Part shown: piece after piece, positions 26,436 through 45,536 of the stretch | Numbering within the stretch: the stretch's first letter is position 1 | Layout: each line of letters starts with the position of its first letter | Source of the DNA: Planctomycetota bacterium | GTDB taxonomy: Bacteria; Planctomycetota; Phycisphaerae; Phycisphaerales; SM1A02 | DNA: 64,000 bases | Direction: 5' to 3' | Assembly: GCA_021414025.1 (NCBI GenBank) | Contig: JAIOPG010000006.1 | Coordinates: 248,001 to 312,000, forward strand | The notes under the pieces: generated by a model | Database searches by the model: none | Told to the model about the DNA's origin: nothing | Seen by the model: only the letters and a program-made list of their open reading frames with translations | Program-made: the position numbers and the translations under genes

Positions 26436-27743
26436 TCAGCGGGGGGCGAGGGCCTCGACCAGCTTCCAACACTCCTCAAATGTGTTGTAGAGGGGGGCCG
26501 GGGCGGCCCGGATCACGCCCGGATGGCGGAAATCGCAGACGATTCCCCTGGGAAGCAGAGTGTCGAAGAGCTTCTGGGCGACCACGGTCCCCCCTTCGAC
26601 CAGCAGCGAAAGCTGACACCCCCGTTCGCCGGTCGCCGTGGGGGTGAGCAGGCGAATGTTGGCCGCCCCACGCTTGCGAAGGGCCAGCTCGATGAAGCCG
26701 GTCATGGCCCTGCTCTTGGCGTTCATCCGGGGCAGTCCCGCCCGGTGGAAGGCATCGAAGCTCGCCAGCAGGGGGGCAAGCGAGAGGACGGGCGGGTTCG
26801 AAACCTGCCAGGCGTCCGCTCCCGGGCCAGGTTCAAAGGTCGGCTCCATCTTGAAGCGGGTCGCGGGATTGGTGCCCCACCACCCTTCAAGCCTTGGCGG
26901 TGGGTTGGCATGGTGCCGCTCATGGATGAAAGCCCCCGCGACGGCCCCCGGTCCACCATTGAGATACTTGTAGGAGCACCAGCAGGCGAAGTCGGCATTC
27001 CAGTCATGCAGGGCGAGGGGGACATTGCCGATTGCGTGGGCCAGGTCCCATCCACACTTGGCCCCGGCCTTATGAGCCGCTGCCGTGAGCCCCCTCATGT
27101 CCAGCACCTGACCGGTGTAGTACTGAACCCCCCCAAGCATCACCAGGGCCAGTTGTTTTCCGTGTCGGGAAATGGTTTCCTCGATGTCTTCGTGGCGCAG
27201 GCAATCCTCCCCCTCGCGGGGGGCGACCTCGATCACATCCTTGGACGGGTCGCCGCCGACGGCCCGCACCAGCGAGTGCACGGCGAAGCGATCGCTGGGG
27301 AATGCGCCGCGCTCCATGAGCAACTTGCGCCGCTCGCCGGTGGGGCGGTAGAAGCTCAGCATCAGGAAATGCAGGTTCGCCGTGAGCGTGTTCATGGCGA
27401 CCACTTCGCTGGGCCGCGAGCCGGTCAGCTCGGCCAGGCCGGCGCGGAAGAATTCGTGGTACTGGATCCACGGCCGGCGGCCGCGGGTGTGGCCCTCGGC
27501 GCCGAGCCTTGCCCAGTCGTCGAGCTCCTCGTTTACGCGGGTCCGCGCCGCCTTGGCCATCAGCCCCAGCGAGTTGCCGACGAAGTAGGCCAGGGGCTCG
27601 CCCTTGTCATCGCGCGGCAGCTCGAATTCGTCGCGAAAGGCCGCAAGCGGATCGTGCGCGTCGCACCACGTGGCGAACTCGAGCGTGGGCTGCAGGTCGG
27701 TCGCCGACAAATCCAGGATTGATCGGGGGGGAGCCTGGGTCAT
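26436..27743 (-). CDS. kynU: Kynureninase
   Basis: 435-aa PLP fold-type I enzyme splitting 3-hydroxykynurenine to 3-hydroxyanthranilate and alanine. PLP lysine is K259 in CSYKYLNGGPG; FVGNSLGL near the N-terminus, MNTLTANLH, GWDLAHAIGN and GWWGTNPATRF are characteristic. The ATG overlaps the stop of the ACMSD gene (GATGA), making it the last gene of the HAO-ACMSD-kynU operon, although its reaction comes before the other two. Confidence 0.95.
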   Translation of the reverse strand: MTQAPPRSILDLSATDLQPTLEFATWCDAHDPLAAFRDEFELPRDDKGEPLAYFVGNSLGLMAKAARTRVNEELDDWARLGAEGHTRGRRPWIQYHEFFRAGLAELTGSRPSEVVAMNTLTANLHFLMLSFYRPTGERRKLLMERGAFPSDRFAVHSLVRAVGGDPSKDVIEVAPREGEDCLRHEDIEETISRHGKQLALVMLGGVQYYTGQVLDMRGLTAAAHKAGAKCGWDLAHAIGNVPLALHDWNADFACWCSYKYLNGGPGAVAGAFIHERHHANPPPRLEGWWGTNPATRFKMEPTFEPGPGADAWQVSNPPVLSLAPLLASFDAFHRAGLPRMNAKSRAMTGFIELALRKRGAANIRLLTPTATGERGCQLSLLVEGGTVVAQKLFDTLLPRGIVCDFRHPGVIRAAPAPLYNTFEECWKLVEALAPR

Positions 27744-28792
27744 CTCTTTGAATTTGTCGCGCGCGTTTCAGGCGTCGCGAATCTCTTTGTCAGCCCCAGG
27801 AACTCGATGGCCGTGCCCGCCAGCATCGATTGCTTCTGCGCGGGGGTCAGCCAGTCGGCGCCGCGGATCAGCGCCCCGGGCGGATGCTCTCCCAGCGGGA
27901 AGGGATAGTCCGAGCCCATCGCGATGCGGTTGGCCCCGACCGTCTTCACCAGGTAGCGCAGCGCCTCCGGGTCATGCACGATGCTGTCGAAGTAGAGGCG
28001 CCGCAGATGGTCGCGCGGATTGGTTGAGGAATGCGTGGCGCAGAGATCGGGCCGCGCGAGGAAACCCTTCTCGATGCGTCCCAGCGTGTAGGGAAATGAC
28101 CCGCCTCCATGCGCGAAGCAGATTCGCAGCTTCGGATGGCGGTCCAGCACGCCGCCGAAGGCCAGCGAGCAGGCGGCCCGGCTGGTTTCCGCCGGCATGC
28201 CCACCAGCCAGGGCATCCAAAAGCGTGGGATTTCATTGCGTCCCACCACATCCCAGGGATGGATGAACAGGGCCGCCCCCAGCGACTCCGCCGCCGCGAA
28301 GAACTCGTCCAGCCCTGAGTCGTCCAAGTCGCGGCCGGCTACGTTGGTGCCGATCTGCGCGCCGGGAAAGTGAAGCTCCTTCACGCAGCGTTCCAGCTCG
28401 CGCGCCGCCAAGGCCCCATCCTGCAGGGGCACGGTGCCCAGGGCCACGAAGCGGTCGGGCCGCTCGCGCACCACTTCGGCGAGATGGTCATTGAGGAAGC
28501 GCGACAGGTCATGAGCGTCGCGGGCCTTGGCACCGTAGGAGAACATCACCGGCACCGTCGAGAGCGCCTGCATGTCCACCCCCGCGGCGTCGCATTCGGC
28601 GGTCCGCCGCGCGGCATCCCAGCAGTTGGACTCGATTTCCCGGAAAACCTTGCCGTCGATCATGATCCGCGCCTTGCAGTCGGCGCAATGCTCCAGCGAG
28701 ATCCAGCCGCCATAGCCGTAGCGCTCGCGCAGATCGGGCCAGCGCTCGGGCAGCATGTGGGTGTGCAGGTCGATCGTGCGGGGCGTGACCAT
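27740..28792 (-). CDS. 2-amino-3-carboxymuconate-6-semialdehyde decarboxylase (ACMSD)
   Basis: 350-aa amidohydrolase-superfamily zinc decarboxylase. H10-T-H12 (DLHTHMLPE) supplies two metal ligands; FIHPWD and FAHGGGSFPYTLGR supply the active-site His residues and GSDYPFPLGE the catalytic Asp. All are the ACMSD versions, so this diverts the unstable semialdehyde away from quinolinate (NAD) toward complete oxidation. TAGCAT lies six bases before the ATG, so it may also be expressed separately from HAO (40 nt upstream). Confidence 0.92.
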   Translation of the reverse strand: MVTPRTIDLHTHMLPERWPDLRERYGYGGWISLEHCADCKARIMIDGKVFREIESNCWDAARRTAECDAAGVDMQALSTVPVMFSYGAKARDAHDLSRFLNDHLAEVVRERPDRFVALGTVPLQDGALAARELERCVKELHFPGAQIGTNVAGRDLDDSGLDEFFAAAESLGAALFIHPWDVVGRNEIPRFWMPWLVGMPAETSRAACSLAFGGVLDRHPKLRICFAHGGGSFPYTLGRIEKGFLARPDLCATHSSTNPRDHLRRLYFDSIVHDPEALRYLVKTVGANRIAMGSDYPFPLGEHPPGALIRGADWLTPAQKQSMLAGTAIEFLGLTKRFATPETRATNSKR

Positions 28793-39834: not shown

Positions 39835-40188
39835 TCAACTTCCGCGGTAGGTCGAATAGCCGAAGGGGCTCAGCAGCAGCGGCACATGGTGGTGCCGGGC
39901 CGCGTCGGTCACGCGAAATTCGATCGCGACCGTTGGGAAAAAGGTCTCGATGTTCTTCTCGGCGAACCACGCGCCGGTGGCGAAGGTCATCCGGTAGATC
40001 CCAGCGTTGAGCTTGCCGCCGCTGAGGAAGTTGCGCACGCGCCCATCGTCGTCGGTGCGTGCCGATTGAAGGTCGGCCCAGGTCTCGCCCTTGAGGATCT
40101 GGCAGTGCACCAGGACGCCCGCCGCGGGCAGCCCGCTGGCGGTGTTCAAGACATGCGTGGAGAGTCCGTGCATCGCGGCCTGGGTCAC
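39835..40188 (-). CDS. hiuH: 5-hydroxyisourate hydrolase (transthyretin-like)
   Basis: 117 aa; hydrolyses 5-hydroxyisourate, the urate oxidase product. N-terminal LSTHVLNTASGLPAAG holds one active-site His, RTDDDGR the Arg, HHHVPLLLSPFGYSTYRGS the last His and the family-defining C-terminal YRGS. GTG at 40188 lies six bases after TAGCCT, supporting it over the ATG at 40173. Divergent from the malate synthase-allantoicase fusion, with which it shares a 74-nt control region. Urate oxidase and OHCU decarboxylase are not in the window. Confidence 0.93.
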   Translation of the reverse strand: MTQAAMHGLSTHVLNTASGLPAAGVLVHCQILKGETWADLQSARTDDDGRVRNFLSGGKLNAGIYRMTFATGAWFAEKNIETFFPTVAIEFRVTDAARHHHVPLLLSPFGYSTYRGS

Positions 40189-40194
40189 GGAGTC

Positions 40195-40200
40195 AGGCTA
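40195..40200 (-). promoter_or_regulatory. -10-like TAGCCT, 6 nt before hiuH start
   Basis: TAGCCT, six bases, GTG at 40188. Faces the TATCTT box of the fusion gene 50 bp away. Confidence 0.5.
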
Positions 40201-40250
40201 AATCAGATCAACGCTTCGGTCAACGATCCGGCGCGTCGCGGCGTGACGGG

Positions 40251-40256
40251 TATCTT
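40251..40256 (+). promoter_or_regulatory. -10-like TATCTT, 6 nt before the fusion-gene start
   Basis: TATCTT, GCGGCG, GTG at 40263; no Shine-Dalgarno. Confidence 0.5.
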
Positions 40257-40262
40257 GCGGCG

Positions 40263-43200
40263 GTGAGCGGCCGCAGCGACAACGAATCATCCGGGATTCC
40301 TCAGTACCGCGACTTCATCTCGGCTCGCCTGATCGAGCATCTCGCGCCGCACATGAAGCCGGTGGAGGGAGTTCCCGATCTGCGGCAGGTGGGAACCACC
40401 GGCGGCCTGGAAAATCCGCAATCGCTGCAGTTTCTGTGCGAGCTCTACGAGCAGGTCAGGGGTGAGCTGGGCGCCGTGCTGCGGCAGCGCGGCATCGATC
40501 GCGACTTCATCGACCAGCGGACGCGAGCCTGCTTCGAGCTCAACCGCAGGCTGGGAATCGATTTTCGTGACTCGGACTATCACACGCTCCTGGGCCAGGA
40601 GGATGGCCAGGGGCGCATCGTGGCCGGGCCGAGGAACAATCTCTATTGCCGTGCGGGCGGCGGCGCGGCGATCGCGGAGATTCCGGAGTTCCTGCGCGGC
40701 CACCATGTCACGCTCTTCGGTCCGCCGGACGACGCCAAGCTCTCCATCAACGCGATGAATGCCTTCCACCGCAGGCTGGAGGGGGAGCCCGCGATCGTCG
40801 AGGAATTGCTCAGGAGTTTCACGGGCTCCGCGAAGTGGGGGGCCGACGACGAGGATTCCAAGACGCCGCTGCGCCGCGACCTTGTCCGCGCCGGGGAAAA
40901 TCTCACCGGATGCCTGAAGGGAAGCATCTCATACAAGGATGATCGCACCGGCAAGAACTATGCGCTGGAGCCAGAGCATCGGTCGCTGCCGATCAAGCGC
41001 TTCCCCGGATTGGCGCTGCCCTGCCCCTTCCTGTTTCACAATGGCAATCCACTGCCGCTGCATCTCTACGACTTCGCGCTGCATCTCTTCGCCAACTGGA
41101 GCGACCCAAAGGCGCTGGTCTTCTATGTGCCCAAGCTGGAGAACGAGGAGGAGGCCGCCTACATCCGGCACATGCTGGAGCAGGCGGAGCGGCTGATCCA
41201 GCGGCGGCATCCCGAGTACAAGCCGGGAACCATCCGGCTGATGATCGTGCTGGAGAATCCCCGCGCCGTCTTCCGCGTGAACGAGATCATGGACGCGTTG
41301 CATCCCTACTTCGCCGGCGCCTCGCTGGGCTGGCACGACTACCTCGCCTCCACGGCGCGGCTCATGAAGGAGGACGCCAACTACCGGATTCCGGTGAAGG
41401 CCGATCCGAACATCGTCATCAAGCACATCAAGGCGTCCCACGATCTGCTGGCCGAGGTCGTCGGCTCGCGCGGCGGCATCAAGGTGGGGGGGATGTACGG
41501 CGTGCTGCCCTCCGACAACGACCTCACGAGCGATTCGTTTCAGGTTGCGATCCGCGGCTTCATCAAGGATGTCGTGACGCAGATGAAGCGGAACCTCTCA
41601 GGATTCTGGGTCGCCCATCCGGATTTCGTGCGGCTGGGCCTGGCCCTGGTCGAGGCGTGGACGAAGTCGACGCCCGCGGATCTCTCGCCGATCGACAGCC
41701 TGGTGAAGTCGCTTCTGCTGCCCAAGCATCACGAAGAAATGCTCAAGTTCATCCATGGGCCGGACGTGCTCGGGCTCGATCCTGAGGATCCGCTTTATCC
41801 GCGGGCCCTGCTGGTGGCGGAGATGAAGGCCTCGGATTTCGTGGCCAACAATGATCCCGGCGAGATCCGCTACAACATTTTTCAGTCGCTGCAGTATGTG
41901 ACGGACTGGCTCTGCGGCAATGGATGCGTGGCGCTGCCGGCGACGATCGACGGCGTTCCAGTGCGGGTGATGGACGACCTGGCCACTGCCGAACGCTCGC
42001 GCTGGGAGGTCTGGCACGAGCTGCATCATGGGCGATTCGCCCTGGAGGATTTCGTTCGCATCGCCCACGAGGAGATGCGCTTCATCCGCAAGGACCTCTC
42101 CGACAGCCGCAAAATCGTGCAGGTGAAGTGGAATGAGCGCACCCAGAAGTGGTACCCGGTGGCCATGAACCTGATGCTGCTGCTGATGTCCGCCGAGACG
42201 CCAGTCGAGTTCGCCACCGAGCTGCTGCTGCCCTTCACCTTGGATTCCATCCGCGACCAGGATGATCCCTGGCATGCCGCGGCCGGGATCGATCCGGAGA
42301 AGTACGCGCTGTCCGAGTTTGTCGCCCGCTGCCACGCCTTTTTCTCGATGTGCGGCTGCGGCGCGTTCGCGACGGCCATGGCACGGCATCCGGTGACGGA
42401 CCTGCGCGAGGCCGAGCGATTGATCATGGGATTTGATCAGGCGCAGATCAACGAGGCCGCAGGCTTTCACGGCGACATCGGCGAGGGCAGGGCGACGCTC
42501 GACGCCACGGCGGCGAAGGAGCAAGCGGGGGTTTCCGCTGGTGACGCGAATATCCTGGAGCAATTGCGGCTTCTGGGGCGGCAGTACCGGGAAAAGTTCA
42601 AGTTCAAGTTCCTGATTTCGGCGGCGGGAAAATCCGGGGCGGAATTGCTGGCGGCGCTTCAAGGCCGACTCGACAATTCGGCCGAGAAGGAATTGCACAA
42701 CGCGCGTGAGGCCTTGTGGCAGATCACTCGGAAGCGACTGCTCGCCCAGCCGATCGACGACGCCCATCACCAGATCCAGGAGGCGCTTAAGAGCCATGAA
42801 GTGCGCGGGGCGGCGATCTGCCTCATATCGCCGAGCGGCCATCTTCAGGCGCTCGAATGCGGCGAACGCTCGGCGGGAGAGCCGGTCACGCCGCACACGC
42901 TCTTTGAAATTGCCTCGCTGAGCAAGAGCGTCGCCGCGAGTTTCGCCATCGAGCATTTCCGCAAGGCCGGCATTCCGCTGACGACGCCGGTCAATCCGCT
43001 GCTTGCCCAGACCAAGTCGCGCTTCCGCATTCGCTCGCTCGATCCGCGCCATCTGGAGCGGGGGGACCAGGTCACCCTGGCGCATCTGATGAACCACCAG
43101 GCGCTGAACCTGCACTACGTCAACGGCATCCCGGCAAACCAGCCGATGCCGGCGTTGACCGACCTGCTTTCAGGCAACGAGAAGTTCGGCTATGAGCCGG

Positions 43201-45041
43201 TCGGTGCGGTCCACGAGCCGGGAAGCAAGTTTCAATATTCGGGCGGCGGTTTCCTGGTGCTGGAGCACCTGATCCAGAGTCGCGAGGGCAAGAGCATTCC
43301 GTCAATCACCGATCCCTTCCTGGCGGAACTGGGGATGGTCGGCGCGACTTTCGAGCAGACCACGCTGCCCATGCGCGAATACGCCACGGGCTACACCGAT
43401 GAGGGACGCGCCATCGAGGGCGCGCGCAAGATGTTCCCGGCCTTCGCCGCGGGCGCGATGGCCACCGTGTCCGATGTCGGAAAATTCCTCCAGGCGCTGA
43501 CGCTTGCATTCCATGATCTTCGCGGGGCCGGGCCGATCTCCCATGACACCGCGGTCCAGATGCTCTTCGGCTCGGACAAGGGCAGCCGGGAGTTCATGGG
43601 GTGCGACATGGGCCTGGGCATCTTCACCGCCGAGGCCGGTCCGAACCGGCTCTGCATTCACCAAGGCGCCAACGACGGCTTCCGCGCCCTGTTCATCCAC
43701 TGCTTCGCGGGCCCGGACCGCGGCAAGGGCTTCGTCATCGCCTGCAACGGCGAGCACAACGGCGTGCTCTTCATCTCGGAGGCGGCGCAGATCCTGCTGC
43801 GGCAGTTCAACCTTCACGGCGTCGACGTTGAGCGGTTCAAGTCGGATGTCGCTGTGGACCATCTTCCCCAGGCGGAACGGGTGAACGCCGGATATCGAGA
43901 GCTGATCTTCTCTGCGTTCCAGCCCGACCTGCCGGAGGCCATCGAGGAGCATGGACCGCGCGATCCGCTGGCGGAGTGCAACCTCGCCGTCGGCGCCAGC
44001 GTGATCGAGGCTTCCAATCAGCGCTTCGCCCGGGCCGAGAATCTGCTCTCGCCTTTCCAACCCGCATTTGATCCCCAACTCTTCGGCAGGCAGGGCAAGA
44101 TCATGGACAGCTGGGAGAGCGTCCGTCACAACCGCAGCGAGTGCGACTGGATGATCTTCGAGATGAAGTCGCCCGCAGCGATCGACTGCGCCGCGGTGTC
44201 CACCCAGTTCCACCAGGGCAACCACGCCCAGGCCATTCGCATCGAGGGATGGGACGCGGTGGTGCAGCAGTGGCGCGAGATCGTGCCGCGCACGCCGCTG
44301 TCAGGGCACACTTTTCATGCAATGGATGCCTCTTCGAAGGGATTTCCATTTCAGCGCATCAGGGTCTCCATCTTTCCCGATGGCGGCGTGACCCGGCTTG
44401 CTCTGTACGGATCGAACCTGCCCGCCGACGAGAGGAAAAAAGTGTTCGCGCGGTCGCAGCAGGCCTATCCCGCCTTCGACGCCCAGACCCGCAAGCCGCT
44501 GACGCCGAAGTACGTCGCCGCGGACGCACGGATCCAGAAGAATCTGGAACGGCATGCGCCCGGAGAGATGGACCTGGCCTGCAGCGCCTTCGGCGGCCGG
44601 ATCATCTCCGCCACCAACGAGCACTATGGCCCCGCGGCGCAGGTGATCTCGCCCTATCCGCCGCTGAACATGTTCGACGGCCTCGAGTCCGCGCGAAGCC
44701 GCGAGCCCGGCCACTCCGAGGAGATCGTCATCGAGCTCGGCCGGGCGGCGGTCGTCGGCCGCGTTGAGGTCGATTTCGCCTACTTCGTGAACAACAACCC
44801 CCTCGAACTCGCGGTGCACGGGCTGTGCGGCGGGGAATGGGTCGAGCTGGTCGCACGGACCGGCGTCAAGGCCTATGCAGGCAACGCCGTTCGCTTCGAG
44901 GTCGCCACCGCAGGACTGTGCCGCCAGATCCGCGTGACCGCCTATCCCGACGGCGGAATGAACCGGGTGCGCGTCTTTGCGGCGAAGGGACTAGAGTGCG
45001 CCGATCGCGGCGCAGCGGGCGCCCTCCGATCGGCGCCCTGA
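40263..45041 (+). CDS. Trifunctional fusion: malate synthase - serine hydrolase (class C beta-lactamase fold) - allantoicase
   Basis: 1592 aa in one uninterrupted frame. Residues 1 to about 620: malate synthase A-type TIM barrel, with the Mg ligands E341 (RVNEIM) and D359 (GWHDYL) 18 apart as in E. coli AceB, GGMYGVLP, and the catalytic Asp D572 in MDDLATAERSR. About 830-1200: serine beta-lactamase/esterase fold with nucleophile S885 in SLSK (K888), Y992-S-G and H1133-Q-G in place of KTG. About 1235-1590: allantoicase, two repeats (ENLLSP..GKIMDSWES and ATNEHYGPAAQVISPYPPLN). Predicted chain: allantoate to ureidoglycolate, then glyoxylate plus acetyl-CoA to malate; the middle domain's reaction is unknown. 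Flanked by hiuH and guanine deaminase. Confidence 0.88.
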   Translation: MSGRSDNESSGIPQYRDFISARLIEHLAPHMKPVEGVPDLRQVGTTGGLENPQSLQFLCELYEQVRGELGAVLRQRGIDRDFIDQRTRACFELNRRLGIDFRDSDYHTLLGQEDGQGRIVAGPRNNLYCRAGGGAAIAEIPEFLRGHHVTLFGPPDDAKLSINAMNAFHRRLEGEPAIVEELLRSFTGSAKWGADDEDSKTPLRRDLVRAGENLTGCLKGSISYKDDRTGKNYALEPEHRSLPIKRFPGLALPCPFLFHNGNPLPLHLYDFALHLFANWSDPKALVFYVPKLENEEEAAYIRHMLEQAERLIQRRHPEYKPGTIRLMIVLENPRAVFRVNEIMDALHPYFAGASLGWHDYLASTARLMKEDANYRIPVKADPNIVIKHIKASHDLLAEVVGSRGGIKVGGMYGVLPSDNDLTSDSFQVAIRGFIKDVVTQMKRNLSGFWVAHPDFVRLGLALVEAWTKSTPADLSPIDSLVKSLLLPKHHEEMLKFIHGPDVLGLDPEDPLYPRALLVAEMKASDFVANNDPGEIRYNIFQSLQYVTDWLCGNGCVALPATIDGVPVRVMDDLATAERSRWEVWHELHHGRFALEDFVRIAHEEMRFIRKDLSDSRKIVQVKWNERTQKWYPVAMNLMLLLMSAETPVEFATELLLPFTLDSIRDQDDPWHAAAGIDPEKYALSEFVARCHAFFSMCGCGAFATAMARHPVTDLREAERLIMGFDQAQINEAAGFHGDIGEGRATLDATAAKEQAGVSAGDANILEQLRLLGRQYREKFKFKFLISAAGKSGAELLAALQGRLDNSAEKELHNAREALWQITRKRLLAQPIDDAHHQIQEALKSHEVRGAAICLISPSGHLQALECGERSAGEPVTPHTLFEIASLSKSVAASFAIEHFRKAGIPLTTPVNPLLAQTKSRFRIRSLDPRHLERGDQVTLAHLMNHQALNLHYVNGIPANQPMPALTDLLSGNEKFGYEPVGAVHEPGSKFQYSGGGFLVLEHLIQSREGKSIPSITDPFLAELGMVGATFEQTTLPMREYATGYTDEGRAIEGARKMFPAFAAGAMATVSDVGKFLQALTLAFHDLRGAGPISHDTAVQMLFGSDKGSREFMGCDMGLGIFTAEAGPNRLCIHQGANDGFRALFIHCFAGPDRGKGFVIACNGEHNGVLFISEAAQILLRQFNLHGVDVERFKSDVAVDHLPQAERVNAGYRELIFSAFQPDLPEAIEEHGPRDPLAECNLAVGASVIEASNQRFARAENLLSPFQPAFDPQLFGRQGKIMDSWESVRHNRSECDWMIFEMKSPAAIDCAAVSTQFHQGNHAQAIRIEGWDAVVQQWREIVPRTPLSGHTFHAMDASSKGFPFQRIRVSIFPDGGVTRLALYGSNLPADERKKVFARSQQAYPAFDAQTRKPLTPKYVAADARIQKNLERHAPGEMDLACSAFGGRIISATNEHYGPAAQVISPYPPLNMFDGLESARSREPGHSEEIVIELGRAAVVGRVEVDFAYFVNNNPLELAVHGLCGGEWVELVARTGVKAYAGNAVRFEVATAGLCRQIRVTAYPDGGMNRVRVFAAKGLECADRGAAGALRSAP

Positions 45042-45056
45042 ACGGAAGCAGCAACC

Positions 45057-45536
45057 ATGAATCAAGAGCAACACCAACAATTCATGCGCCGGGCGATCGC
45101 CCTCGCAAGGCAGAACATCTCCGAGCGCAACGGCGGACCCTTCGGCGCCGTGGTCGTGAAGGATGGCAAGATCATCGGCGAGGGATGGAACAAGGTCACT
45201 GAGCGCAACGACCCAACGGCCCACGCCGAGATGGAGGCCATCCGCGCCGCCTGCGCTGCTCTGCGCACCTTCGACCTCTCCGGCGCCATCATCTACACCA
45301 GCTGCGAGCCCTGTCCCATGTGCCTCTCCGCGATCTACTGGGCGCGGCTGGACAAGATCTACTTCGCCAACACCCGGCAGGACGCCGCCGACATCCAGTT
45401 CGACGACGACTTCATCTACCAGGAGATCGCCAAGGACCATGACCAGCGCGGCATTCACATGACGCAGATCCTGCGCGACGAGGCCCTGCCGATCTTCACC
45501 GACTGGCAGAAGAAGAGCGCCAAGATCCGCTATTGA
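45057..45536 (+). CDS. guaD: Guanine deaminase (cytidine-deaminase fold)
   Basis: 159 aa, GuaD-type: zinc His/catalytic Glu in HAEME and the two Cys in CEPCPMC; the N-terminal FMRRAIALARQNI and NGGPFGAVVVKDG fit, as does the C-terminal swapped segment ending KIRY. Deaminates guanine to xanthine, feeding the purine breakdown continued by hiuH and the allantoicase fusion. Starts 15 nt after the fusion stop; GGAAG precedes the ATG. TAGAGT at 44992-44997, inside the previous gene, might be an extra promoter. tRNA adenosine deaminase (TadA) is excluded by the C-terminus. Confidence 0.9.
   Translation: MNQEQHQQFMRRAIALARQNISERNGGPFGAVVVKDGKIIGEGWNKVTERNDPTAHAEMEAIRAACAALRTFDLSGAIIYTSCEPCPMCLSAIYWARLDKIYFANTRQDAADIQFDDDFIYQEIAKDHDQRGIHMTQILRDEALPIFTDWQKKSAKIRY

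Follow-up and report, generated by a model that had tools for sequence, protein, structure and literature searches.

The 64,000-nucleotide stretch of planctomycete DNA analysed here (the window) encodes a four-enzyme fusion, in which a malate synthase (MS), an OHCU decarboxylase (UraD), a serine hydrolase (SH) and an allantoicase (ALC) part follow one another in that order. We propose, with a probability of roughly two in three, that this protein is a single-chain purine-breakdown enzyme leading from OHCU via allantoin, allantoate, ureidoglycolate and glyoxylate to malate. In the proposed route, HIU hydrolase from the adjoining gene would provide OHCU, which the UraD part would decarboxylate to (S)-allantoin. 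The SH part is predicted to open the hydantoin ring via an acyl-serine intermediate, converting allantoin to allantoate as a non-orthologous allantoinase, and the ALC part would then yield urea and ureidoglycolate. Ureidoglycolate could release urea and glyoxylate spontaneously or via a putative further activity, following which the MS part would combine glyoxylate with acetyl-CoA to form malate, so that a reactive aldehyde is cleared and its carbon kept. The roles of the UraD, ALC and MS parts are predicted from homology and from conserved motif residues.

The fusion gene (40263..45041, + strand) begins with a GTG start and encodes 1592 aa. The preliminary description of this DNA had reported an uninterrupted 4.8-kb gene, and the frame is indeed open throughout. 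It had read the product as a single-chain MS - serine hydrolase - allantoicase, which was right as to the fusion and the intact frame but overlooked the UraD part and left the serine hydrolase without a role. The domain order, which it had proposed to look for in other genomes, recurs in one frame in a further 59 distinct proteins of full length, which come from Planctomycetota and Bdellovibrionota. Estimates of dN/dS, taken only from pairs with unsaturated dS, are about 0.05-0.2 in each of the four parts, and purifying selection acts on all of them. The idea that the fusion is an assembly chimera or a decaying pseudogene finds some footing in the few homologues broken by apparent frameshifts (L079, L090), but it is already refuted by dozens of independent assemblies with intact frames and dN/dS well below 1, and we give it practically no credence. 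In L079 and L090 the break lies within SH or close to where MS passes into UraD, and may be a sequencing error or a real split.

The MS part comprises residues 1-690 (40263..42332, + strand) and passes the Pfam cut-offs for both the TIM-barrel (PF01274, MS_TIM-barrel, residues 252-472) and the C-terminal domain (PF20659, MS_C, residues 534-652). Its AF2 model has a pLDDT of 92, and the best Foldseek match is E. coli MSA (AceB, 3cv2/3cuz; TMt 0.82). When a profile of 55 MS parts was aligned with E. coli MSA, R246, E331, D359 and D572 were placed opposite residues that, on what is established for MSA and MSG, we take to be catalytic; the spacing of 28 residues between E331 and D359 is the same in the E. 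coli enzyme. Of the key acids listed previously (E341, D359 and D572), the two Asp residues are thus retained, whereas the Glu that aligns with E. coli MSA is E331 and not E341, and the Arg is R246. All four residues are invariant in 55 MS sequences, so that the loss of active-site residues in orthologues, named beforehand as grounds for abandoning the earlier interpretation, is not seen. A loss of the catalytic Arg had been suspected since one E. coli MSA Arg (RVRG) aligns with a Pro in the window protein. This was rejected, as R166, presumably the catalytic Arg of E. coli MSA, aligns with R246. The MS part lies outside the malate synthase A equivalog TIGR01344 (138.4 bits against a cut-off of 594.5) and, as judged from sequence, is a malate synthase homologue rather than a member of the A equivalog. 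While it shares its fold and the aligned Arg, Glu, Asp and Asp with E. coli AceB, the two are only about 22% identical, the window MS is about 160 aa longer (690 vs about 530), and it belongs to a ureide locus, in most cases unaccompanied by isocitrate lyase.

Isocitrate lyase was above cut-off in only 9 of the 34 sampled genomes with the fusion, leaving 25 without, and in four genomes (G103, G113, G124 and G128) the gene beside it is a second, separate malate synthase of roughly 30% identity. Because isocitrate lyase is rare and a second malate synthase lies beside it, the probable source of the glyoxylate used by the fused MS is ureide breakdown, not the glyoxylate shunt. Glyoxylate consumption, already put forward as the likely role of this part, is well supported by homology. 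Three Desulfobulbaceae loci (L096, L099 and L105) contain a standalone MS relative, 58-60% identical, among allantoin-breakdown genes; these include relatives of ureidoglycine aminohydrolase and allantoate amidohydrolase. L096 and L105 also have a relative of PuuE, confirmed by family model. A parallel case is the yeast DAL cluster, in which the malate synthase DAL7 is tied to allantoin breakdown and glyoxylate disposal (PMC3646786), although yeast has separate genes and an ordinary DAL1 allantoinase.

The UraD part (Pfam OHCU_decarbox, residues 714-826; 42402..42740, + strand) scores 78 bits against PF09349, with a cut-off of 24, and both the FHGDIG motif containing H736 and the EQ motif (E753-Q754) are conserved across homologues. 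It falls below the OHCU decarboxylase equivalog TIGR03180 (71.8 bits vs a cut-off of 139.4). The two allantoicase repeats noticed earlier were both located by Pfam and structure-sequence searches as PF03561 repeats, the first at residues 1244-1384 (43992..44414, + strand) and the second at residues 1436-1573 (44568..44981, + strand). The ALC part matches 1o59 in Foldseek (E 4.6e-30) and is likewise below its equivalog (TIGR02961, 195.4 bits vs a cut-off of 277.9).

The genes on either side are those previously described: a divergent hiuH for 5-hydroxyisourate hydrolase (39835..40188, - strand; TIGR02962, 135 bits, cut-off 87) and, downstream on the same strand as the fusion, guaD for guanine deaminase (45057..45536, + strand), which matches the solved guanine deaminase 1wkq (1wkq/1tiy) with an E-value of 1e-48. 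The promoters of both hiuH and the fusion gene are presumed to lie in the 74-bp gap between them (40189..40262). A HIU hydrolase homologue accompanies the fusion at most related loci, the family being found at 57, the PuuD family at 46 and xanthine dehydrogenase subunits at about 20, and a guaD-family deaminase is present in 8 loci of the neighbourhood set. Such neighbours (HIU hydrolase, PuuD or uricase, xanthine dehydrogenase) would supply the earlier steps of the pathway. An allantoicase-MS fusion within a purine-breakdown locus, as first described, is well supported. The fumC gene that had been cited in its favour corresponds to a fumC-like signature at about 10.6 kb; being 30 kb away, it was rejected as a sign of linkage.

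The SH part (Pfam Beta-lactamase, residues 838-1179; 42774..43799, + strand) has a beta-lactamase fold (S12-like), and under PF00144 it displays both this fold and the SxxK, Tyr and HxG motif residues, here S885-x-x-K888, Y992-S-G and H1133-Q-G. S885, K888, Y992, H1133 and R1141 are invariant in 51 SH sequences. The SH-ALC model has a pLDDT of 93.5, and the fold matches those of D-amino acid amidase, DD-peptidase and ClbP. Amide hydrolysis thus occurs within this fold. The predicted opening of a hydantoin ring via an acyl-serine route is chemically plausible. Compared with D-amino acid amidase, R61 DD-peptidase, EstB and LACTB, which have the same fold and SxxK / Y / HxG layout, SH differs in sharing a chain with ureide enzymes and an enzyme that uses acetyl-CoA. 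Because MS and UraD lie N-terminal of it, SH is presumably cytosolic. The family models applied label this part as beta-lactamase-like only, and neither TIGR03178 (AllB) nor TIGR03212 (PuuE) appears among the best 25 of the 33 matches of the window protein.

The main reason for proposing SH as an allantoinase is the inverse occurrence of AllB and SH-ALC. Our sample consisted of 34 genomes with the fusion and the three with MS only, mostly incomplete MAGs. Urate oxidase was found in 33 of the 34 (PuuD in 28, uricase in five others, never both; G014 has neither). The AllB and PuuE allantoinases catalyse the reaction predicted for SH but belong to families unrelated to it, such that any allantoinase function of SH would be analogous to theirs. 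AllB was above its family cut-off in 0/37 genomes and PuuE in 0/34 fusion genomes, PuuE being present in two of the three MS-only genomes. The near-hits to AllB that were checked were rejected as allantoinases: five are dihydropyrimidinases or dihydroorotases, a weak match in G106 is dihydroorotase-like, and that in G122 is another amidohydrolase. Across Bdellovibrionota, AllB occurs in 1/71 genomes with SH-ALC vs 22/25 with standalone allantoicase only (Fisher p = 1.9e-17, a value that ignores relatedness, most of the 71 sharing one ancestral fusion). Among the three AllB-negative genomes with standalone allantoicase, one has an AllB gene truncated at the end of a contig, and in another the contig stops beside the allantoicase gene.

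Split forms of the protein give a further view of SH. G241 has SH-ALC without MS or UraD, directly followed by a ureidoglycolate lyase gene and with no AllB above cut-off, so that the lyase step in this genome does not require SH. At the G240 locus, PuuD and SH-ALC are accompanied by class V aminotransferases, an ALC with a single repeat and an MS encoded separately; that both genomes also carry an ordinary standalone allantoicase counts against the proposed pathway. That SH and ALC stay joined when MS and UraD split off fits consecutive steps. At L157 and L160, the split version is accompanied by class V aminotransferases and by an allantoicase-like protein of 166-180 aa that has a single repeat. 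On the strength of the gene-content pattern, SH may be a non-orthologous allantoinase. We lean, with somewhat less assurance than for the one-chain pathway, towards SH being a third, evolutionarily independent allantoinase with a beta-lactamase-type serine mechanism, set within an OHCU-to-malate polypeptide that would have originated in Bdellovibrionota and been acquired by a planctomycete lineage in a single transfer.

Alternatively, SH might act on another ureide or amide, or be structural, with allantoin opened by a dihydropyrimidinase or a further allantoinase. Many genomes, including that of the window, have a dihydropyrimidinase that might hydrolyse allantoin (above its own cut-off in G105 as well as in the window's genome), the substrates of beta-lactamase-fold hydrolases are many and a shared fold shows none of them, and the single exception to the inverse pattern, G239, has AllB, in an AllB-UraD fusion gene, as well as SH-ALC. 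Set against this are seven fusion genomes (G106-G109, G120, G122 and G123) with no cyclic amidohydrolase match above about 140 bits to AllB, the retention of the catalytic motif residues of SH, and the persistence of the SH-ALC junction in G240 and G241 despite the loss of MS and UraD from the chain. We consider another job for SH unlikely, though deserving of some weight. A second departure from the proposed pathway, which we regard as more doubtful still, is that the MS part takes ureidoglycolate directly or also frees urea, thereby replacing ureidoglycolate lyase too. The lyase family PF04115 is missing from all 37 genomes with this MS (34 fusion and three MS-only), none of the four genomes of the phylum that do have the lyase has this MS subfamily, and at 690 aa vs about 530 for MSA the part is large. 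However, PF04115 is rare throughout the phylum of G106 (4/369 genomes), even in genomes with ordinary allantoicase, so that its absence from the 34 fusion genomes says little and was dropped as evidence of a new lyase activity. The lyase search of the fusion genomes covered PF04115; ureidoglycolate enzymes also occur among the M20 amidohydrolases. Furthermore, ureidoglycolate is unstable and decays spontaneously to glyoxylate (PMC6320678).

Whether the physical linkage itself matters is evenly poised: with all parts active, the fusion might do no more than ensure co-expression and fixed ratios, without any channelling. The MS part is also found as a separate gene, and fusion is therefore not required for MS. 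On the other hand, the part order is conserved across two phyla, and fusion could plausibly serve to keep reactive intermediates from being lost, an explanation put forward for another ureide fusion (PMC3646786). Fusions that place consecutive ureide enzymes in one chain are thus already known, but the known one has fewer enzyme types per chain and no malate synthase or SH part (PMC3646786). Ureide-enzyme parts are also contained in NCBIfam PRK13797 (allantoicase), for which the window protein is far below cut-off, and in AllB-UraD fusions as in G239; these use ordinary allantoicase or AllB parts, with neither MS nor SH. In the open-access literature searched, we found no description of this fusion protein, its part order, its size or its SH part. 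What appears to be new here is the order and size of the fusion and its SH part and, within it, a testable candidate class of allantoinase. If correct, the one-chain reading would mean a new class of enzyme for a step familiar from textbooks and an almost entire catabolic pathway carried by a single chain. It would also close a gap in the pathway that recurs across many Bdellovibrionota and in one planctomycete lineage, and would suggest a way in which relatives of predatory bacterial groups might recover purine nitrogen and carbon. The prediction it makes for the part that the family models applied call beta-lactamase-like is both precise and cheap.

A scan of GTDB genomes returned 73 loci, mostly from Bdellovibrionota and Planctomycetota. 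The fusion or its SH-ALC half occurs in 71/369 genomes of Bdellovibrionota, the phylum of G106, and the protein is present in 13/16 genomes of the window's genus, its own included, several copies being cut by contig ends. In a quick tree, the 17 planctomycete rows, with the window among them, group in a single clade with support 100 that is nested within Bdellovibrionota. This nesting suggests one transfer of the fusion to planctomycetes, a provisional reading given the quick method and midpoint root. Elsewhere in the window's genome (L116, G000:C2:264000-274000), a dihydropyrimidinase above the NCBIfam cut-off lies beside aldehyde dehydrogenase-, aminotransferase- and nucleobase permease-like genes, probably constituting reductive pyrimidine breakdown. 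Within the window, a kynureninase C-terminal-domain protein adjoins an Amidohydro_2 protein at 26436-28792 on the minus strand. The purine locus is itself embedded in an array (33236-64000) of at least 11 TPR / glycosyltransferase-41 (O-GlcNAc-transferase-like) paralogues on both strands, with catalytic parts 50-66% identical to the query copy.
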